Assembly (NCBI RefSeq): GCF_023630255.1
Contig: NZ_JALPRS010000001.1
Span: 558,001-622,000 of the forward strand
Direction: 5' to 3'
Length of the DNA stretch: 64,000 nucleotides
Source: Pontibacter deserti
GTDB taxonomy: Bacteria; Bacteroidota; Bacteroidia; Cytophagales; Hymenobacteraceae
Made by a program: the position numbers and the translations under genes. Positions within the stretch are counted from its first letter, which is position 1. The number at the start of each line of letters is the position of its first letter. Positions 204 through 11,475 of this stretch are shown here, one piece after another. The notes under the pieces are model-generated. The model was not told the DNA's origin, ran no database searches, and saw only the letters and a program-made list of their open reading frames with translations.

Positions 204-563
204 ATGAGAATCAAGGCTACTACCAACCAGGTTGATGAATACATAGGAAAACTGAGTCAGGAAAAGATACATCTGGCACAGGAAATACGTCGTATTATTC
301 ATTCATCAGTAGCACACCTGGAAGAATGTGTACGCTGGGATTATCCTTGTTACTTCTTTTACGGCCCTGTGTGCTATTTTGCATCCTCCCGAAGCGGTAT
401 TCATTTCGGCTTCTTCAGAGGGAAAGAGCTTTCTGATCCGGCCCGCAGGTTAGTTAGCCGTAACGGCCAACATCTGCACATCAAGATCCGCACCTTAGAC
501 GACATTGACGAAACTTACTTTGTAGAGTTGATCAAAGAAGCTGTGTTGCTTAACCAGAATTAG
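204..563 (+). CDS. DUF1801 (YdhG-like) domain protein
   Basis: A 119-residue soluble protein that resembles the DUF1801/YdhG family, small alpha-beta proteins of unknown biochemical role that are common in Bacteroidota. The N-terminal half reads as helix (residues 5-35, with LAQEIRRIIHSS), followed by a conserved-looking VRWDYPCYFF strand near residue 43 and a GIHFGFFRGKEL segment near 65; these W-x-Y-P and G-F-F-x-G-x-x-L patterns are what suggest the family. There is no signal peptide or membrane segment. It stands alone and its stop codon overlaps the last four bases of the convergent exporter gene. Function unknown; the family call is by recognition only. Confidence 0.75.
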   Translation: MRIKATTNQVDEYIGKLSQEKIHLAQEIRRIIHSSVAHLEECVRWDYPCYFFYGPVCYFASSRSGIHFGFFRGKELSDPARRLVSRNGQHLHIKIRTLDDIDETYFVELIKEAVLLNQN

Positions 564-1471
564 GGGTTGGTGCAGGCTTCGTGCTCGCAGGCATAGCCGG
601 GTACTTCCAGTTCTACTGTTACATGCTGCACTGCCAGGTCAGCCATCATTTCCCGTATTTGTTGCTTTATTTTTTCTGTTTCCTGCAAGGGCAGGTTTTC
701 AGCTATTACGGCATGCAGTGTCAGCACATTGTAGGTGCCATCCATTGTCCAGATGTGCAGGTCGTGGATGGACTGTACATCCGGCAGAGCTAGTATGCGT
801 TGCTGTACTTCATCCAGATTAATGTGCGGGGGAGTGCCCTGTAATAATATCTTCAGGCTCTGGCGAAGGTTCTTAACCACGTTATACAATACAAACAGCG
901 TAATGCCAACAGAAAGCAGCGGGTCTATGAAAGGCCAGTTAAAAAAATAAAGTATAACACCACCAACCAGAACGGCAATCCAACCTAAAACATCTTCCAG
1001 CAGGTGCAAGCGCACGACGCGTTCGTTTATTGAGTTTTCTCCTTTTAAACGAAGCACGGCTGCACCATTTACAAGTATACCCAACACCGCAAAGCCAATC
1101 ATGCCGGCAGCATTTACAGGTTCCGGATTCCAGATGCGTGGTATAGCTTCAGAAAGTATAATAAAAGACCCAACCAGAAGTATAACGGAGTTAACAACTG
1201 CACCCAATAAGGAAAAACGCTTGTACCCGTAAGAGAAATTGCGATCGCTGCCTTTTTTAGAGAGCTTTTCGAAGTACCAGGCCAGCCCCAGTGAGAGCGA
1301 ATCGCCAAGGTCGTGCAGGGCGTCTGACATAACAGCCACGCTGTTTATCCAGAAACCACCTACAAACTCCAGGATCGTAAAGCCCAGGTTCAGTAAAAAA
1401 GCTACTTTTATGTTGCTACCCCCATGGTGGTGATGCTGATGATCATGGGAATGCCCGTGGTTATGTGCCAT
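560..1471 (-). CDS. czcD: cation diffusion facilitator (Zn/Co/Cd exporter)
   Basis: An inner-membrane divalent-cation/proton antiporter of the CDF family, expected to export Zn, Co or Cd from the cytoplasm. The first 17 residues are His-rich (several HxH pairs), as in CzcD. Six transmembrane segments follow from about residue 22 to 205. The two metal-site motifs of the family are visible as HxxxD: HDLGD in TM2 and HLLED in TM5. A cytoplasmic C-terminal domain of about 90 residues contains the HDLHIWTMDG pattern typical of CDF dimerisation domains. At 303 residues it has the usual length. It is transcribed alone and converges on the upstream DUF1801 gene with a 4-base overlap. Exact metal not deducible. 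Confidence 0.92.
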   Translation of the reverse strand: MAHNHGHSHDHQHHHHGGSNIKVAFLLNLGFTILEFVGGFWINSVAVMSDALHDLGDSLSLGLAWYFEKLSKKGSDRNFSYGYKRFSLLGAVVNSVILLVGSFIILSEAIPRIWNPEPVNAAGMIGFAVLGILVNGAAVLRLKGENSINERVVRLHLLEDVLGWIAVLVGGVILYFFNWPFIDPLLSVGITLFVLYNVVKNLRQSLKILLQGTPPHINLDEVQQRILALPDVQSIHDLHIWTMDGTYNVLTLHAVIAENLPLQETEKIKQQIREMMADLAVQHVTVELEVPGYACEHEACTNP

Positions 1472-1595: not shown

Positions 1596-2279
1596 ATGAA
1601 GGTACTGTTAATTGAGGATGAACCCAAAGTGGCTTCTTTTATAAAAAAAGGGCTTGAAGAACAGGCTTTTGAAGTAGACCAGGCATACGATGGTACCTTC
1701 GGGATTAAGCTGGCGTTGCAGAACGAATACGACATCATCATCCTGGATATCATACTGCCGCACATGAACGGGCTGGAAGTATGCCGTGAGATCAGGAAGC
1801 ATAGCACATCTGTATCTATACTTATGCTTACCGCACTGGGCACCACCGATGATAAGATAACAGGCCTGGATGCAGGAGCAGACGACTACCTTACCAAGCC
1901 ATTTGAGTTTAAAGAATTGCTGGCCCGCATACGTGCCTTAACCCGCCGTACCACCGAAAGTACCACCGGAGAGAAGCTAACTATTGCCGACCTGGAGATG
2001 GATGTAGTAAAGAAAACAGTGACCAGAAGCGGCAAACCTGTAAACCTTACAGCCCGCGAATTCGCCTTACTTTATTACCTGCTGCGCAACAAAGAGCGCG
2101 TGGTATCGCGGGTAGATATAACCGAACAGGTATGGGAAACTTCGTTCGATACGGGCAGCAATGTAATAGATGTATACATCAACTTTCTCAGGAAGAAGAT
2201 AGATAAAGATCATTCGTCTAAACTGATTCATACGTTGGTGGGCATGGGCTATGTACTGAAAGAGCAGAAAGAGGTATGA
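1596..2279 (+). CDS. OmpR/PhoB-family response regulator
   Basis: A two-component response regulator of 227 residues. The receiver domain (residues 1-115) has the acidic pair E7/D8, phosphoacceptor D51 in IIILDIILPHMNG, the LTA segment near 80 and the KPF lysine near 101. The C-terminal winged helix (about 128-222) has the NLTAREFALLYYLLRN and VIDVYINFLRKKID patterns of the OmpR/PhoB group, closest in style to CusR/ArlR. The stop overlaps the start of the kinase gene (ATGA), so the two are translationally coupled. Four 11-bp direct repeats lie just past the kinase gene, upstream of the SulP/carbonic anhydrase operon, which makes that operon the likely target (inference). Confidence 0.93.
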   Translation: MKVLLIEDEPKVASFIKKGLEEQAFEVDQAYDGTFGIKLALQNEYDIIILDIILPHMNGLEVCREIRKHSTSVSILMLTALGTTDDKITGLDAGADDYLTKPFEFKELLARIRALTRRTTESTTGEKLTIADLEMDVVKKTVTRSGKPVNLTAREFALLYYLLRNKERVVSRVDITEQVWETSFDTGSNVIDVYINFLRKKIDKDHSSKLIHTLVGMGYVLKEQKEV

Positions 2280-3667
2280 AGATAAGGAACAGGCTTACGC
2301 TGCAGTTCGCCGGAATATTTACGCTTATTCTTGTTTTGTTTTCGCTGGTAATCTACTACTTCACATCTATTTACCGGCAGGAAGATTTTTATGACCGGAT
2401 TCTGCAACGTGCAAAAGTGGTTTCTGCTTACGTATTTGATGCAGATGAAGCAGATGCCCGTACCCGCCGCCTGAACCAGATCCGGTTTTACCAGGTGCTC
2501 CCTTACGAAGTTGTTAAAATTTATGACAGCCAGGGCAGACAAACCTTTACGGAAGGAAGAGGCAGGCTGGAAGTTGACAATGCACTGCTAACTAAAATAA
2601 GGCAGGAAAAAGAACTACATTATGAGCAGGGCGACCGCCAGGTAGTTGGTATAGTTTACCATGATAACCAGGGAGAATTTATTGTACTGGCATCTTCTAT
2701 TGACGCTTATAGTTTAAAAAAGCTGCAGCACCTAAAGGTTATACTTATAGTTGGTTTCCTGGGCTCCCTGATTGTTGTGCTGGTAGCGGGGTGGGTATTT
2801 GCTAAAGAAGCACTTCGCCCGATAACCAAAGTAGTAAGCGAGGTAGAAAAGATCACGGCATCGGACCTGCACATGCGCCTGAGCAACGCCGACGGAAAAG
2901 ATGAGCTATCCCATCTGGCGCAAACCTTTAATAAAATGCTGGAACGGCTTGAACTGGCTTTTGAGATGCAAAGCACCTTTGTTTCCAATGCATCGCATGA
3001 GTTGCGCACACCACTTACCACAATGATGGGAGAACTGGAAGTAGCTTTGATGAAGCCCCGTACGCCGGAAGAATATCAACGTGTGCTAAACTCCACACTA
3101 GAGGATGCCCGCTTACTAACAGAGCTTTCAAACGGGTTGCTGCAGATCGCGCAGGCAAGTATAGATTCATCTAAAATACAGCAGGTGTACCTGCGCTTTG
3201 ATGAGTTGGTTTGGATGGCCCGCGACCAGGTAGTAAAGCGCCAGCCCAATGCCCATATCGATATTGATTTTGCCGATTTCCCGGATGAAGAAGACCGACT
3301 GGTAGTGAAAGGAAATGAAGCACTGTTGCTGATAGCTATGGTAAATGTGATAGAGAATGCGATCAAATTCTCCCCGACAGGCAGAAGTGCAACCGTACGC
3401 ATAGTACTTAGCCGGAAAGATGTAAAGCTGGTTGTAACAGACCGTGGGTTAGGTATAACAGAAGAAGACCTGAAGCATGTGTTTGTTCCTTTTTTCAGGG
3501 CAGAGAACGTGCGTAACATAACAGGCCACGGCATTGGCTTGCCGCTTACCGAACGTATTCTGAAATTACACAACGGTAGTATAACTGTTCATTCGCAGAT
3601 AAACCAAGGCACAGAAGTTACTCTTACTCTGCCACAGGCATACGGCTTTATACCTGCCCGACCTTGA
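2276..3667 (+). CDS. sensor histidine kinase
   Basis: A membrane sensor kinase of 463 residues paired with the preceding regulator. TM1 covers about residues 10-30, an extracytoplasmic sensor of about 120 residues follows, and TM2 lies at about 153-175. A HAMP linker (about 177-230) leads to the HisKA domain with phosphoacceptor H241 in SNASHELRTPL. The ATPase domain shows the N box (NVIENAIKFSP), G1 (DRGLGI) and G2 (GHGIGLPL). The sensor domain gives no recognisable ligand family. The short, simple build is like ArlS/CusS. The location directly before sulP suggests a signal related to anions, bicarbonate or pH, but that is only inference. Confidence 0.93.
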   Translation: MKIRNRLTLQFAGIFTLILVLFSLVIYYFTSIYRQEDFYDRILQRAKVVSAYVFDADEADARTRRLNQIRFYQVLPYEVVKIYDSQGRQTFTEGRGRLEVDNALLTKIRQEKELHYEQGDRQVVGIVYHDNQGEFIVLASSIDAYSLKKLQHLKVILIVGFLGSLIVVLVAGWVFAKEALRPITKVVSEVEKITASDLHMRLSNADGKDELSHLAQTFNKMLERLELAFEMQSTFVSNASHELRTPLTTMMGELEVALMKPRTPEEYQRVLNSTLEDARLLTELSNGLLQIAQASIDSSKIQQVYLRFDELVWMARDQVVKRQPNAHIDIDFADFPDEEDRLVVKGNEALLLIAMVNVIENAIKFSPTGRSATVRIVLSRKDVKLVVTDRGLGITEEDLKHVFVPFFRAENVRNITGHGIGLPLTERILKLHNGSITVHSQINQGTEVTLTLPQAYGFIPARP

Positions 3668-3725
3668 TTTTAATCTCTTTTTAATCTCGTTTTAATTCCA
3701 CCTTAATATGGTAACTATACTTTTG
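3668..3725 (+). promoter_or_regulatory. four 11-bp direct repeats plus -7 box before sulP
   Basis: Four head-to-tail units in exact 11-bp phase: TTTTAATCTCT (3668-3678), TTTTAATCTCG (3679-3689), TTTTAATTCCA (3690-3700) and CCTTAATATGG (3701-3711), i.e. YTTAAT repeated with 5-bp gaps. This is the architecture of OmpR/PhoB-family binding sites (compare the PmrA and QseB boxes). A -7 match TACTTTTG lies at 3718-3725, so the array covers the -35 zone as expected for activation. The nearest candidate regulator is the one encoded at 1596-2279. Confidence 0.7.
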
Positions 3726-3811: not shown

Positions 3812-5383
3812 ATGAAAGAAAGTATAAAGAGTCCTAATTACCTTGGCCATCTGAGTAAAGATATTCCAGCAGGATTAGTTGTTTTTTTTGTTGCGTTACC
3901 TCTATGCCTTGGTATATCCCTGGCTTCTGGTGCTCCGCTTATGTCCGGGCTTGTAACGGGTATAGTTGCCGGTGTACTGGTTTCGTGGTTAAGTGGTTCA
4001 CAGCTTGCAGTTAGCGGCCCTGCAGCAGGTCTTACTGTAATTGTACTGAACGGTATTGAGACCCTTGGATCTTTTGAGGCCTTTTTGCTGGCAGTGGTGA
4101 TCGCCGGTTTTCTGCAATTGATCCTGGGTTTCCTGAAAGCAGGTGTCATCGGGCTTTATTTTCCTTCCTCTGTTATTAAAGGAATGTTGGCCGCCATTGG
4201 CCTTATACTTATCCTGAAGCAGATTCCACACTTTTTAGGAGCTGATGATGATTTCTTTGGAGAGATGCAGTTTTTCCAGCCGGATGGCCGTACTACCTTT
4301 TCAGAGCTAGGGCATGCGTTCTCTAGTATTCAACTAGGCGCCATGATCATTGGTATCATCTCCCTGGCTATAATCCTGTTGTGGGATAATCCTAAAATAA
4401 AGAGCATTAAGATACTAAGCTTTATCCCGGGAGCACTGGTGGCTATTATTTTTGCAATTGTAATAAATGCCTTGTTCTCAGGCTTTGCTCCTGAGCTGAC
4501 GGTTACATCTTCGCACTTAGTTAGCATTCCAATACTGGGTAGCTTTAACGACCTTAGCACAGAGCTCCGTTTCCTGGACCTGGGTGCTCTTTCTAACCCG
4601 TCGCTATATATTGTAGCCTTTACTATTGCCATTGTAGCTAGTTTAGAAACATTGCTTAGTATTGAGGCAATAGATAAACTTGACCCGCACAAGCGCCGCA
4701 GCAATACTAACAGAGAGTTGAAGGCACAGGGTGTTGGTAACATGGTTGCAGGCTTGTTAGGTGGTTTACCTATGACGGCCGTAATTGTGCGTGGTTCTAC
4801 AAACGTTGCCTCAGGTGCTCAAACCAGGGTGTCGTCTTTTGTACATGGCGTGTTTCTGGCACTGTCGGTATTTCTGTTAGCTGGCCTGATGAACCGTATC
4901 CCGCTTTCAGCGCTTGCTGCAGTACTACTGGTAGTTGGTTTTAAACTTACGAAGCCGGCACTTTACAAGTCACAGTTAAAGCTTGGTCATGAGCAGTTTA
5001 TACCTTTCATTGTTACAATACTGGCTATTCTTTTCACAGACCTTCTGATTGGTATCTGCGTTGGTCTTGCTGTGGGTATTTTCTACATTCTGAAGGCAAA
5101 CTACAAATCGCCGTACTTCTTCCACAAAGAAGAACATAAAGACAAAGAGATCATCCGTATCAGGCTTAGCGAGCACGTTTCTTTCCTGAATAAGGCAAGT
5201 ATTATACTTACACTTGACCACTTGCCACAAAACAGCCATGTAATAATTGACGGTGAAAATTCAGAATACATTGATTATGATGTGCTGGAAGCAATTCAGG
5301 AATTTAAACAAACGGCTCACGAACGCAACATTAAAGTAGACCTGGTGAACATAAGTAATGTAGAAGTAATGGAGCTTCACTAA
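3812..5383 (+). CDS. SulP-family anion (probably bicarbonate) transporter
   Basis: An inner-membrane transporter of 523 residues in the SulP/SLC26 family. The N-terminal part shows the signature GLVVFFVALPLCLGISLASG, followed by about 11-14 hydrophobic segments up to residue 430, including ETLLSIEAIDKL and GGLPMTAVIVRGSTNVASGA, both typical of the family core. The C-terminal 90 residues form a short STAS-like domain (SFLNKASIILTLDHLP, then VIIDGENSEYIDYDVLEAI). Family members carry sulfate or bicarbonate; a carbonic anhydrase gene 43 bp downstream favours bicarbonate. The two genes form an operon with the repeat array and promoter at 3668-3725. Substrate is inferred from context only. Confidence 0.93.
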   Translation: MKESIKSPNYLGHLSKDIPAGLVVFFVALPLCLGISLASGAPLMSGLVTGIVAGVLVSWLSGSQLAVSGPAAGLTVIVLNGIETLGSFEAFLLAVVIAGFLQLILGFLKAGVIGLYFPSSVIKGMLAAIGLILILKQIPHFLGADDDFFGEMQFFQPDGRTTFSELGHAFSSIQLGAMIIGIISLAIILLWDNPKIKSIKILSFIPGALVAIIFAIVINALFSGFAPELTVTSSHLVSIPILGSFNDLSTELRFLDLGALSNPSLYIVAFTIAIVASLETLLSIEAIDKLDPHKRRSNTNRELKAQGVGNMVAGLLGGLPMTAVIVRGSTNVASGAQTRVSSFVHGVFLALSVFLLAGLMNRIPLSALAAVLLVVGFKLTKPALYKSQLKLGHEQFIPFIVTILAILFTDLLIGICVGLAVGIFYILKANYKSPYFFHKEEHKDKEIIRIRLSEHVSFLNKASIILTLDHLPQNSHVIIDGENSEYIDYDVLEAIQEFKQTAHERNIKVDLVNISNVEVMELH

Positions 5384-5426: not shown

Positions 5427-6065
5427 ATGGAAAAAATATTTGAGAACAATCAGAAATGGGTTGCTGAGAAGCTAGCCCAGGACAGTGAATACTTTGTTAA
5501 ACTGGCTCAAGGACAACAGCCACGTTACCTGTTTATTGGCTGTGCAGACAGCCGTGTGCCTGCAGGCGAAATTACCGGCACAGGACCAGGCGAATTATTT
5601 GTGCACCGCAACATTGCTAACATGGTAGTTCATACAGACATGAACATGCTGTCGGTGTTACAGTATGCTGTGGAAGTACTGAAGGTTAAAGATATTATAG
5701 TTTGCGGGCACTATGGCTGCGGCGGTGTGGCTGCGGCTGCCAGTAACAAGCAGTTCGGTCTGATAGACAACTGGCTTCGTAACATCAAAGATGTAATACG
5801 CCTGCACGAAGATGAGATTTTGAGTGTCTCTGATGAGGATGCACGCCTGCGCCGGCTGGTAGAACTGAACGTGATTGAGCAGGTGCACAATCTTTCAAAA
5901 ACATCTATCATCCAGAATGCCATGTTAACTGATAACCCTCCTAAGTTGCATGGTTTAGTATATGATATTAAAGAAGGTTTGCTGCGCGACCTGAAAGTAG
6001 ATATAAATACGTTTAAGCGTTACGAGCACATCTACAACACCATATTGGAAAATACGGAAAATTAA
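5427..6065 (+). CDS. can: beta-carbonic anhydrase
   Basis: Catalyses reversible hydration of CO2 to bicarbonate; cytoplasmic, zinc-dependent. The plant-type beta class is shown by zinc ligands C39, H95 and C98 (CGHYGCGG) and the catalytic D41/R43 dyad in IGCADSRVP. The 212-residue length is typical. It follows the SulP transporter by 43 bp in the same operon, the common SulP-CA pairing in which the enzyme interconverts the bicarbonate brought in. A bidirectional hairpin terminator closes the operon at 6120-6152. Assignment is secure; the symbol is by class. Confidence 0.95.
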   Translation: MEKIFENNQKWVAEKLAQDSEYFVKLAQGQQPRYLFIGCADSRVPAGEITGTGPGELFVHRNIANMVVHTDMNMLSVLQYAVEVLKVKDIIVCGHYGCGGVAAAASNKQFGLIDNWLRNIKDVIRLHEDEILSVSDEDARLRRLVELNVIEQVHNLSKTSIIQNAMLTDNPPKLHGLVYDIKEGLLRDLKVDINTFKRYEHIYNTILENTEN

Positions 6066-6119: not shown

Positions 6120-6152
6120 AAAAAAGCCTGGTAGTTTAACCAGGCTTTTTTG
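6120..6152. terminator. bidirectional hairpin terminator
   Basis: A 12-bp stem (6121-6132 with 6139-6150/1) and a 6-nt loop, flanked by an A run and a T run. It serves both the carbonic anhydrase operon (+) and the barrel gene (-). Confidence 0.85.
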
Positions 6153-6977: not shown

Positions 6978-8087
6978 CTACCACTCGTAGTCTCTGCGTG
7001 ATGATGAACCATAAGAGTATGGAGGTCCGCTGTAAGAACCGGAAGAGTAAGATGATGAACTACCGGAGCGGTTATAGTCTGAATCGTGTTCACGATCCCG
7101 CATCTCATCCATTCTTCTTCTGCGTTCTGCTTCTTCATCACCGAACCATGATCTTATTTCATCACCGGCACGGTCAAAGAATCCACGGTCCTCATGGCCT
7201 TCGCGGTCTCTGTCATAGCTGCGTGAAGAATATCTGTCTCTGTCGTAATCGCTGGAGTAACGGTCTCTGTCGTAGCTGCCGCTGCCATAGCTGCTTGATC
7301 CATAGCCGCCAGTGCTGCCATAGCCTGATGATCCCATTCCTGAGCTATAACCAGATCCCATACCTGAACCGTATTGTGTGCTTCTGCCGTAGCTGCCAGA
7401 GCCAGAACTACCTGATCCGTAACCAGAACTACCTGATCCGTAACCAGTGTTGCCAGAGCCAGAGCCATAACCTGATGATCCCATTCCAGAACCATAGCTA
7501 GATGATCCGTAACCGGAAGTTCCATAGCTAGAACCTGTGCTTCCTGAACCATAACGGCTGCCAGAGCCATAGCCAGAAGATGAACCATAGCCACCGCCAT
7601 AGCTGCTTCTGCTTCTGTTGTCATCATCGTCTGTCATGCGATCCCATGCATTAGATACACGGCTCTTAGTGCGGTCCCAGGCATTCTCTATTCTATCACC
7701 GGCACGATCCCAGGTATCACGGCCACTGCGGTCGTAGTCGCTGCTATAACGTGATCCTGAAGTTCCTCTGCCATAACTTGATGAGCCGTAGCCAGAAGAT
7801 CCGTATCCTGAAGTTGATCCATATCCTGAAGAAGACCCATATCCTGATGAGCCATAGCTGCTGCCAGTCATGCCTGCAGAACGTCCGTAAGTAGAACCGC
7901 TGCCATAGCCTGAACCGGCACTATAATCACGACCTGATCCGAAGCCAGAACCTGAACCAGTTCTGGTGCCATAGTCGCTGCTTCTGTTTGTTAAGTTATC
8001 GGAATAATAATTTCTTGCCGACCCTCTTGATTCTGATCTGTTGTTGTCATTGTACGGGTTGTAGCCCGAGTTTTCATAGCTTCTCAT
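6978..8087 (-). CDS. Gly/Ser/Tyr-rich low-complexity protein with FDRAGD/SWFGD helices
   Basis: A 369-residue soluble protein of unknown function without a signal peptide. Residues about 38-115 and 161-272 consist of degenerate GYGSS, SYGSG and SSGYGS units. They are separated by a charged, helix-like stretch at 124-152 (WDRAGDRIENAWDR, then SRVSNAWDRM). After YDRDRYSS repeats at 272-292 a second related helix occurs at 304-333 (FDRAGDEIRSWFGDEEAE, then an Arg run). The tail 336-369 is again Ser/Tyr-rich. The two [WF]DRAGDxI segments look like copies of one motif. The Tyr-spaced composition recalls phase-separating eukaryotic FET-protein domains, an analogy and not homology. A 185-residue open frame on the other strand is a by-product of the repeats. 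Confidence 0.85.
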   Translation of the reverse strand: MRSYENSGYNPYNDNNRSESRGSARNYYSDNLTNRSSDYGTRTGSGSGFGSGRDYSAGSGYGSGSTYGRSAGMTGSSYGSSGYGSSSGYGSTSGYGSSGYGSSSYGRGTSGSRYSSDYDRSGRDTWDRAGDRIENAWDRTKSRVSNAWDRMTDDDDNRSRSSYGGGYGSSSGYGSGSRYGSGSTGSSYGTSGYGSSSYGSGMGSSGYGSGSGNTGYGSGSSGYGSGSSGSGSYGRSTQYGSGMGSGYSSGMGSSGYGSTGGYGSSSYGSGSYDRDRYSSDYDRDRYSSRSYDRDREGHEDRGFFDRAGDEIRSWFGDEEAERRRRMDEMRDREHDSDYNRSGSSSSYSSGSYSGPPYSYGSSSRRDYEW

Positions 8088-9030: not shown

Positions 9031-11475
9031 TTAGAACTGGTATACTACCTGCCCCTGGTCGTTTATAGTTAGAGCAGCTTCAAAGGTGTTACCGGTTTTA
9101 TGGGATATAAAACCTTTTATTTTACCTGTTTTACCTTTTGTGAGCAGGGTAGCAATCTGCTTTTCAGAGAGTGTTTTACCGCCCAGTTCAAAGGGTACCT
9201 TAAACTGGCAACCCTCCCGGAAACGACTGCATCCGTAGGCTGTACTTCCTTTTAACATTTTACCTTGCTTGCAGCGCGGGCACATAGCAAACGGATCTGA
9301 TGCTGGCTTTTGCTCTGCTTTCTGAACTTCAAGCTGCTGTCCGTTTAGAACTATACTTCCATCAAAAGTTTGGCCGGCTGCGTCTTTTAGTCCTTTTATA
9401 GTTGGTGTTTTGCCTTTGGTTAGCAGGGCAGTAATCTGTTTCTCGTTCAGTGGTTTTCCGAACTGCTCAATCGGTATCAGGAAACGGCATCCATCTTTAT
9501 ACTTAATGCAGCCATAAGCTGTAGAACCTTTTACAATATACCCCTGCTGACAGGCAGGGCAGGAGCCAAGCCCTTGCGTAGGAGCTGCGGCTTTCTCTTT
9601 TGCCGGAGCAGTTTTTTTAGATTTGGCTGCATCCCTGATCTTAGCGGCCGGAGCAGCAGTTGCCTGTGGTTCTATACTTACGCGGGCAGTATCATTCTTC
9701 ACTTCCTGCACCAGGCTGATAACAAAATTCTGTAGTTCCTGTAAAAAGGCTTCGGCTTTAAACTCACCACCTTCTATCTGGCGCAGTTTCTTTTCCCACT
9801 GCCCGGTCATCTCCGCCGATTTCAGGGTCTGGTTTTTAATCACACCTATCAGGTCAATGCCCATCTGTGTAGGCACTATCTTTTTTTTGTCTTTGCGGAT
9901 GTACTGCCTCTTATAAAGTGTTTCAATAATAGCTGCACGGGTAGATGGCCGGCCGATCCCGTTCTCTTTTAAGGCATCCTTTAGTTCCTCATCTTCCATC
10001 TGCTTGCCGGCTGTTTCCATGGCGCGCAGCAACGTGGCTTCGGTATATTCTTTTGGCGGGTTGGTCATTTTTTTCTCCAGCAACGGTTCGTGTGGGCCAT
10101 GTTCGCCTTTATCGAAATGCGGCAGTACGCCGGCTGTCACTTCTTCCGCATCACCTTCTTTTGCAGGAGCTTCCGGTTTAATATCTTCAGCACCATACAA
10201 CACACGCCAGCCCGGCTCTAGTATCTGTTTTCCTCTAACCCTAAAAGTATAACCTGCCGATTCTGCATTTACAGTAGTGTTACTTACTATACAATCCGGG
10301 TAAAAGGCAGCTATAAAACGACGGGTAATAATATCATATACATCGGCTTCGCGACCATAAATGCTACCTGCCGATGCGCCTGTTGGTATGATAGCGTGGT
10401 GATCTGTTACTTTATTATTGTTGAATACTTTTTTGGTTTTGCGAATCTTGTCTTGTAGCAACGGTGCTACTTCATTTCTATAGTTATCCAACCCCTGAAG
10501 TATACCTGGTATCTTCGGATAAATATCATCAGGAAGGTAAGTGGTATCTACACGCGGATAAGAAACTACTTTCTTCTCGTACAGGCTCTGCACGGTCTTC
10601 AGCGTTTCGTCGGCCGACATGCCCAGTTTGTTATTGCACTCAATCTGCAGCGAGGTTAGGTCGAACAGGTTACGCGGCGCTTCAGTACCTTTCTTGGTCT
10701 CAACATCAGTTATAGTTAATTCTGCCTGACGTATCGCCTCCAGTATTTTCTGAGCATCTTCCTCTTTCTGGAAACGGCCGTTGGTGCTGGCAAACGTTAT
10801 ATCGCGGTAAACAGTCTTCAGTTCCCAGTATGGCTGCGGTACAAAGTTAGCGATCTCATGGTGGCGGTTTACCAGCATAGCCAGCGTAGGTGTTTGCACA
10901 CGGCCAATAGATAAGGTCTGGCGGCTGCCGTTGGCATACTTCAGCGTAAACAAACGGGTAGCATTCATGCCCAGCAGCCAGTCGCCAATGGCGCGGCTTT
11001 TACCAGCCTGGTAGAGAGAATCGAATTCTGAGCCTTCGCGTAAGCGGGCAAAACCCTGACGAATGGCTTCTTCGGTAAGCGACGAGATCCAGAGACGTTT
11101 GAAAGGTTTTCTATACTTGGCTTCGGTTAAAACCCAGCGCTGAATTACTTCTCCTTCCTGGCCGGCATCCCCACAGTTTATTACTTCTTCGGCGTTGTCG
11201 AGTAGCTGCTTTATTATTCTGAATTGCTTTTGAACACCGCTGTCCTGCATCAGTTTTATGCCGTACTGCTGCGGTAGCATGGGCAGGTCGTGTATGCTCC
11301 AGCGCTTCCATTCGGGGCGGTAATCGTCGGGCTCGCGCAGCTGGCAGAAGTGCCCGAAGGTCCAGGTTACCTGGTAGCCGTTGCCTTCAAAATAACCGTC
11401 TTTCTTGGTTCTGGCACCAATAACCATGGCAATTTCGCGGGCCACACTGGGTTTTTCAGCAATGCAAACTTTCAA
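9031..11475 (-). CDS. topB: DNA topoisomerase III (type IA)
   Basis: A type IA topoisomerase of 814 residues that relaxes or decatenates DNA through a transient 5' phosphotyrosine. The Toprim domain starts at KVCIAEKPSVA and includes CGDAGQEGE at 101-109. The catalytic tyrosine is Y306 in VVSYPRVDTTYL. The GIGRPSTRAAIIETL motif lies further on. After about residue 610 there is a Lys/Ala-rich linker, then two copies of a zinc-ribbon plus small domain: CPACQQGYIVKGSTAYGC and CPRCKQGKMLKGSTAYGC, each followed by a KxLxEKQIxxLLTKGKTxxIKG block. These repeated C-terminal units are normal for Bacteroidota TopB. Transcribed alone. Confidence 0.95.
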   Translation of the reverse strand: MKVCIAEKPSVAREIAMVIGARTKKDGYFEGNGYQVTWTFGHFCQLREPDDYRPEWKRWSIHDLPMLPQQYGIKLMQDSGVQKQFRIIKQLLDNAEEVINCGDAGQEGEVIQRWVLTEAKYRKPFKRLWISSLTEEAIRQGFARLREGSEFDSLYQAGKSRAIGDWLLGMNATRLFTLKYANGSRQTLSIGRVQTPTLAMLVNRHHEIANFVPQPYWELKTVYRDITFASTNGRFQKEEDAQKILEAIRQAELTITDVETKKGTEAPRNLFDLTSLQIECNNKLGMSADETLKTVQSLYEKKVVSYPRVDTTYLPDDIYPKIPGILQGLDNYRNEVAPLLQDKIRKTKKVFNNNKVTDHHAIIPTGASAGSIYGREADVYDIITRRFIAAFYPDCIVSNTTVNAESAGYTFRVRGKQILEPGWRVLYGAEDIKPEAPAKEGDAEEVTAGVLPHFDKGEHGPHEPLLEKKMTNPPKEYTEATLLRAMETAGKQMEDEELKDALKENGIGRPSTRAAIIETLYKRQYIRKDKKKIVPTQMGIDLIGVIKNQTLKSAEMTGQWEKKLRQIEGGEFKAEAFLQELQNFVISLVQEVKNDTARVSIEPQATAAPAAKIRDAAKSKKTAPAKEKAAAPTQGLGSCPACQQGYIVKGSTAYGCIKYKDGCRFLIPIEQFGKPLNEKQITALLTKGKTPTIKGLKDAAGQTFDGSIVLNGQQLEVQKAEQKPASDPFAMCPRCKQGKMLKGSTAYGCSRFREGCQFKVPFELGGKTLSEKQIATLLTKGKTGKIKGFISHKTGNTFEAALTINDQGQVVYQF

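Follow-up and report, generated by a model that had tools for sequence, protein, structure and literature searches.

Four tandem seven-letter words that separate a two-component system from a sulP-carbonic anhydrase gene pair in Pontibacter deserti very probably serve as the binding site for the response regulator encoded next door. On the comparative evidence presented below we put a probability of about 0.8 on the reading that the four repeats constitute the operator of this adjacent regulator and probably mediate class II activation of the gene pair. The analysis started from a stretch of 64,000 nucleotides (the window), in which the following features are relevant, all on the forward strand:

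1596-2279, +: CusR-like response regulator made up of a receiver and a winged helix of OmpR/PhoB type (Pfam PF00072 Response_reg, PF00486 Trans_reg_C)
2184-2186, +: encodes Phe197, the recognition-helix residue (helix DVYINFLRKKI) that covaries with base 3 of the half-site
2276-3667, +: membrane histidine kinase (Pfam HAMP, HisKA, HATPase_c)
3668-3678, +: unit 1, TTTTAAT + CTCT (sequence, alignment)
3679-3689, +: unit 2, TTTTAAT + CTCG (sequence, alignment)
3690-3700, +: unit 3, TTTTAAT + TCCA, overlaps the place of the -33 element (sequence, alignment)
3701-3711, +: unit 4, CCTTAAT + ATGG (sequence, alignment)
3718-3725, +: -7 box, TACTTTTG (sequence)
3812-5383, +: sulP, SulP-family anion transporter (PF00916, 190.4 bits, cut-off 23.2) with a weak STAS match (21.7 bits, cut-off 22.6)
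5427-6065, +: beta-carbonic anhydrase gene, second in the presumed operon (PF00484, 178.6 bits, cut-off 25.7; solved relatives)
6120-6151, +: terminator-like hairpin of 13 pairs with T tail, likely operon end

The array and its promoter

The array had been described in an earlier note as four exact 11-bp direct repeats. The four units do follow each other without gaps in an 11-bp phase, beginning at the base directly after the stop codon of the kinase gene (TGA, 3665-3667), but what repeats is a 7-bp word (TTTTAAT three times, CCTTAAT in unit 4) followed by a free 4-bp spacer, so that 'exact' is true of the phase and not of the 11-mers. The placement given there was accurate: the array (3668-3711) lies between the end of the two-component system at 3667 and the SulP-carbonic anhydrase genes, which start at 3812, and 10 bp beyond the last TTAAT it is followed by the -7 box that the note had pointed out, which we take, from the consensus TAnnTTTG, to be of the Bacteroidota type. 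An alignment of 32 arrays revealed TTAA cores that are invariant or nearly so and spacers that vary. The distance between the last TTAAT and the -7 box was 10 bp in all 42 loci that matched both array and box, in a search that allowed gaps of 3-16 bp, and in some further loci the box is one letter off with its position unchanged. The position of the array next to the core promoter is fixed. In 29 of the 32 aligned arrays no TTG is found at 17-23 bp, the -33 distance.

In favour of functionless chance repeats one can point to an A+T-rich intergenic stretch and to cores made up of T and A only. Such an origin is extremely improbable, and was rejected on the basis of window shuffles, a genome search and shuffled upstream regions. 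The window holds two exact three-unit matches, which overlap and both fall within the array; elsewhere in the window there is no three-unit match with up to two mismatches (shuffles with two mismatches gave a mean of 0.12), nor is there one with up to one mismatch in the rest of the 4.15-Mb genome (control 0), which makes the array unique in the genome. The array was reached in 0 of 1600 shuffled upstream regions, and across genera the cores are kept while the spacers are free. A profile built from sequence only, out of 32 homologous arrays, scored the window site at 49.1 bits (E 1.7e-12), a score that is partly so by construction because those 32 arrays include that of the window; the runner-up site in the genome reached 14.2 bits (E 0.12). 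As to autoregulation, the profile search of the genome gave no further site with an E value under 0.1. No two-component gene was seen among the open frames at the runner-up site (L154), which were read without a domain scan, and the bestrophin gene of the genome lies at none of the five own-genome profile sites.

Conservation and linkage to the kinase gene

The strict three-unit pattern has matches in 104 of 200 genomes of the family, including 46 of the 49 further members of the genus. The members that lack a strict array (G081, G083 and G131, the last 87% complete) are the same three that lack a SulP match at E 1e-100. A profile search of the genus likewise found the array in 47 of 50 genomes, each time with the best site at most 200 bp upstream of the SulP match. 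From the family genomes that were positive for SulP and negative for the strict pattern a subset of 37 was fetched (all 8 of genus g4, 1 of g2 and 28 of g5), and at all 37 SulP loci we found the kinase gene upstream together with a relaxed four-unit array, the last units of which often read TTAAC or TTAAG. The 32 named loci bring the total to 69 orthologous family SulP loci, and in all 69 the kinase gene lies upstream and a four-unit array is present, in which 0-4 of the 27 scored letters mismatch. The earlier note had suggested looking in close genomes for the array before sulP and for its co-occurrence with the kinase, and both are found throughout these loci; the case that it named as damaging, in which the genes are kept and the 11-bp phase is lost, was sought and not seen in any of the 69. 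A second, more distant SulP of Rufibacter (L097, L103; 52-53% identical) has neither kinase gene nor array and stands outside this set.

The association with the kinase gene was also seen among 80 loci that were picked by SulP alone. The array is present at 36 of the 37 loci that have a kinase gene upstream in the same direction, versus 0 of the 43 that do not. The sole kinase-positive locus without array (L076) carries a distant two-component system, with a kinase that is 28% identical, and among the 43 others are four (L069, L077, L080 and L092) where the regulator gene near SulP is a distant one and runs the opposite way. At L100, L107 and L112, three loci of the Flavobacteriaceae that do have a kinase gene, the variant word TTCTAAT occurs at equal phase and gap. 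In a tree of the kinases the 28 SulP-linked sequences of the Hymenobacteraceae fall together, apart from one outgroup row, on a very long branch (6.4), that intrudes among them, and the three of the Flavobacteriaceae form a separate clade among kinases of other operons, which hints that the system may have been recruited to SulP twice. The earlier note's proposal of an OmpR/PhoB-type direct-repeat operator belonging to the adjacent system is upheld by the linkage of array and kinase gene and by the covariation of the recognition helix with the half-site (see below). Family conservation, kinase linkage and absence from the SulP-less genus genomes together support the operator reading.

Regulator, kinase and neighbouring genes

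For the regulator itself the nearest models are not those of PmrA and QseB, the boxes of which the earlier note had brought in for comparison. The protein scores 163.8 bits against the PmrA model (NF007928, cut-off 330) and 154.3 bits against the QseB model (NF007663, cut-off 345), and membership was rejected since both curated cut-offs are missed by far and the cztR/silR/copR subfamily (TIGR01387) scores higher, being the nearest at 251.4 bits, itself below a cut-off of 279.2. The kinase similarly reaches 206.4 bits with the CusS/CopS/CzcS model TIGR01386, below the cut-off of 292.55. The nearest paralogue of the regulator in its own genome is 37% identical.

A fold search with the whole kinase returned mostly kinase cores among the best 50 matches, and the sensor part (about residues 30-155) was therefore modelled alone. 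It was predicted as a PAS/PDC-like domain (pLDDT 87.5), with fold matches to the sensors of PhoQ, WalK, CitA, CzcS and CusS, the best Foldseek match being the zinc-responsive CzcS (E 1.6e-4). No Cys, His or Met is invariant in the sensor across 19 aligned kinases.

The SulP of the window is up to 87% identical to that of the named Pontibacter loci. Its score against the BicA model NF050096 (123.8 bits) stays below the cut-off of 880, and among solved structures the BicA-type 6ki1 (E 3.8e-18) ranks behind 5da0. In 61 of the 69 family loci SulP has a carbonic anhydrase gene no more than 1.5 kb downstream, and in the other 8 it has none within that distance. On the other side of the system a divergent gene for a cation-efflux (CDF) protein (window 560-1471, -) adjoins the regulator gene; a relative is present in 23 of the 32 named family loci and missing in 9; the five Rufibacter loci have none, and no array is found at the CDF gene. 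Beyond the operon the window (6978-8087, -) encodes a repetitive protein of 369 aa that is very rich in Gly, Ser and Tyr, a similar one being found in L041 at 9928-10929.

The same layout at other operons

We searched for the full layout with a pattern of four TTYTAAY words, 10 bp and TAnnYTYG. At class level, with up to three mismatches, 42 sites were found in 33 of 295 genomes (one with the reversed-pattern control), and at order level, with up to two mismatches, 65 sites in 43 of 241 genomes (control 0), two of which, both in G864, are plain tandem repeats. Of 29 class loci that were read, 19 have the array behind a CusS-like kinase gene, L206 and L207 among them being SulP loci of the family. 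In another 3 the array adjoins a divergent system, in 1 it follows a regulator gene that stands alone, and in 6 no such system or gene is beside it. In L208 and L220 a small open frame stands between the CusS-like kinase gene and the array. The idea that the array is special to SulP was rejected, as the identical layout precedes other operons.

The downstream genes that were scanned for domains include those for an outer-membrane efflux protein (L247), an anion channel of the SLAC1 type (L253) and a DUF6044 protein (L246). Another SulP follows the array of L236, in which no two-component system is found beside the array in the stretch read. Genes for Usp and then bestrophin lie behind a second array of L041 (7564-9533; same place in L194), a Usp gene lies behind that of L269, and the short proteins of L100, L231 and L251, which have no Pfam match, may be called Usp-like; L251 also has a gene behind its array that is bestrophin-like, as identified by likeness. 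Bestrophins can be anion channels. In two genus genomes (L195, 2013-3896, and L262; the same kind is found in L192) a kinase gene is followed by a TTCTAAT-type array, a 465-aa gene and urease gamma, so arranged that the two-component system seems to drive the urease operon. The urease gamma was identified by domain scan in L195, and the 465-aa gene, which has no Pfam match, is called porin-like.

Three genomes of genus g3 have TTTTAAT-type arrays before small S74-chaperone-like proteins (L152 near 3076, L007 near 1517, and L268), with Pfam Peptidase_S74 in the first two and an assignment by likeness in L268. One order genome, G794 (L273-L279), contains nine sites, two of which are divergent and 71 bp apart (C136:61869 and 61940). 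A secondary site is conserved in eight genus genomes (L183-L188, L191 and L193); in six of these it precedes an outer-membrane-like protein of 283-290 aa (HAEPLYIDLIRDLGA), and in L193 it precedes another CusR-like regulator and kinase gene.

Residue 197 and the third base of the word

The regulators and their words could be compared wherever regulator, kinase and array occur as a set in cis. For each set, base 3 of each word was tabulated against the regulator residue that aligns with Phe197 of the window, the T-type having the word TTTTAAT and the C-type TTCTAAT, where C-type means two or more C of four at base 3. A script collected 104 sets, 95 of which have a site with at most four mismatches: 69 combine T-type with Phe and 26 combine C-type with Tyr, with no other combination. 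Three of the nine remaining sets had a better site beyond the range of the script (L232 and L258, both divergent systems, and L252). When these and L259, in which the regulator gene lies directly upstream without a kinase, were added, Phe went with the T-type in 70 of 70 and Tyr with the C-type in 29 of 29 cases (99 of 99 counted pairs). Among the well-filled columns of the regulator alignment only position 197 separates the types perfectly, the next best reaching 0.899. Down-weighting of rows at 75% identity leaves an effective number of 29.6 sets (8.2 T-type, 21.3 C-type). Two genomes, G016 (L129, L298) and G068 (L144, L299), hold both types, each with the matching residue.

Some loci stand outside the count. 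L115-L117 agree with the code, L076 has no array, L257 has Ile, lies beside a divergent system and has a TATT site, and two loci go against the code: L193 has Tyr with a T-type site that lies upstream of the regulator and has five mismatches, and in L270 Tyr goes with a site that has six mismatches and a C in one of its four words. The C-type is itself impure, with C in 24, 21, 17 and 19 of the 26 Tyr sets at units 1 to 4. The patterns demanded T or C at base 3, and regulators that read A or G were therefore mostly missed. In two trees the changes agree with the code in 3 of 3 and 6 of 6 cases, the latter tree containing a very long branch (L259); as only 1 and 2 of these changes are on well-supported branches, no sign test is significant, and the number of independent switches is small.

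The pattern points to a single amino acid of the regulator as what settles which version of the word it reads. We lean slightly towards a broader reading in which CusR-like systems of the Bacteroidota would share one operator (four TTYTAAT words separated by 4-bp spacers, ending 10 bp short of the -7 box and in most cases following directly on the kinase gene), with a code of Phe197 for T and Tyr for C that keeps paralogous modules apart. The SulP-carbonic anhydrase module would then be a dedicated Phe/T member and, with the bestrophin, SLAC1 and urease modules, would maybe form an inorganic-carbon/pH layer in heterotrophs. If this is true, operator and one-residue code predict, from sequence alone, the operons of many unstudied two-component systems of the Bacteroidota, the specificity of a regulator can be tested by a single point mutation together with a single base change in each word, and a defined circuit is available for asking whether heterotrophic Bacteroidota sense inorganic carbon. 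The four-word layout with fixed promoter distance and the Phe/Tyr code were not found in the open-access literature searched, which is weak evidence of novelty; two literature matches to the sequence words were a PCR primer and a CRISPR repeat. What is new is the pairing between base 3 and residue 197, tandem-repeat operators of OmpR/PhoB-type regulators being of a known kind.

Mechanism and alternative explanations

The kinase is expected to sense something outside the inner membrane via its PAS/PDC-like domain, candidate signals being inorganic carbon, pH, an anion or a metal. The phosphorylated regulator would then probably bind head to tail, each 7-bp word taking a single DNA-binding domain, so that two tandem dimers or a tetramer fill the four words. 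Since the array occupies the place of a -33 element and stops 10 bp short of the -7 box, bound regulator would most likely substitute for the -33 contact that is missing, meet RNA polymerase and activate sulP and the carbonic anhydrase gene in class II fashion. Binding, stoichiometry and activation are inferred. Position alone also allows repression, in which the regulator over the -33 place would block the promoter until a signal relieves it, and the array does span the upstream promoter region. The absence of TTG at the -33 distance from 29 of 32 arrays, however, suits an activator-dependent promoter, and PhoB-type activators occupy a similar place. Activation is the likelier, and a repressor appears quite improbable.

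Two proposals concern the signal. Inorganic-carbon sensing by the system, suggested in the earlier note, is possible. It would build on the operator explanation by adding a signal: the kinase would be sensitive to CO2, to bicarbonate or to linked pH, and the operon would import and interconvert bicarbonate for the carboxylations of a heterotroph. The carbonic anhydrase gene close behind SulP in 61 of 69 family loci and the bestrophin, SLAC1 channel and urease operons behind the same operator are in line with it, as is the induction of PhoPR of Mycobacterium tuberculosis by CO2, according to PMC11895460. The SulP score is, on the other hand, far from the BicA cut-off, 8 of the 69 loci lack a nearby carbonic anhydrase gene and the remaining modules, e.g. 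those for efflux, are off the theme, so that we regard a dedicated carbon circuit as tentative. A metal or envelope stress circuit, with a CusRS/CzcRS-like sensor of zinc or another metal and the zinc enzyme carbonic anhydrase and SulP among its outputs, is unlikely. The heavy-metal models score best for both proteins, CzcS is the best match of the predicted sensor, the CDF gene lies beside the regulator in 23 of 32 named loci and several sister modules drive outer-membrane efflux genes. Yet both subfamily scores are under cut-off, the 19 aligned sensors have no invariant Cys, His or Met, and the CDF gene, absent from 9 of the 32 loci, carries no array. CusS-like kinases of Bizionia are dissimilar to the periplasmic domain of CusS, as stated in PMC11213822. 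An operator of the adjacent regulator remains our preferred reading of the array.

Comparison with known systems

The gene order, a SulP gene followed by a beta-carbonic anhydrase gene, is that of the SulP-carbonic anhydrase pairs for which BicA-like bicarbonate uptake has been proposed. What sets the window pair apart is the linked two-component system and the operator that belongs to it, both of which are lacking at 43 of 80 related SulP loci, and its low BicA score. By score CusRS/CopRS/CzcRS is the nearest subfamily for both window proteins, and sister modules drive efflux genes; unlike members of that subfamily, the window proteins score below the TIGR01387 and TIGR01386 cut-offs, and the window site consists of four direct repeats, whereas the CusR box of E. 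coli is palindrome-like. The boxes of PmrA and QseB, with YTTAA-type half-sites every 11 bp, share that half-site and repeat with the array, but the regulator is not of those families and the window has four words, placed 10 bp before a Bacteroidota -7 box.

In PhoP of M. tuberculosis a tandem dimer, the cooperative binding of which can be extended to a tetramer, sits head to tail on 7-bp words that a strict 4-bp spacer keeps apart, and in its crystal with DNA Tyr220 hydrogen-bonds a C, as described in PMC4832192. The resemblance to the window system extends from word and spacer length to the aromatic residue, which in PhoP reads base pairs in the major groove (PMC4832192), Tyr220 being aligned with Phe197 of the window. 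The PhoP system differs in its word (TCACAGC), in the two words of the crystal, in phylum and promoters, and in having Tyr rather than Phe. The period alone leaves the register unfixed, and base 2 of the PhoP word would correspond to base 3 of the window word. Phe, which has no hydroxyl group, may instead pack against the methyl group of the thymine.
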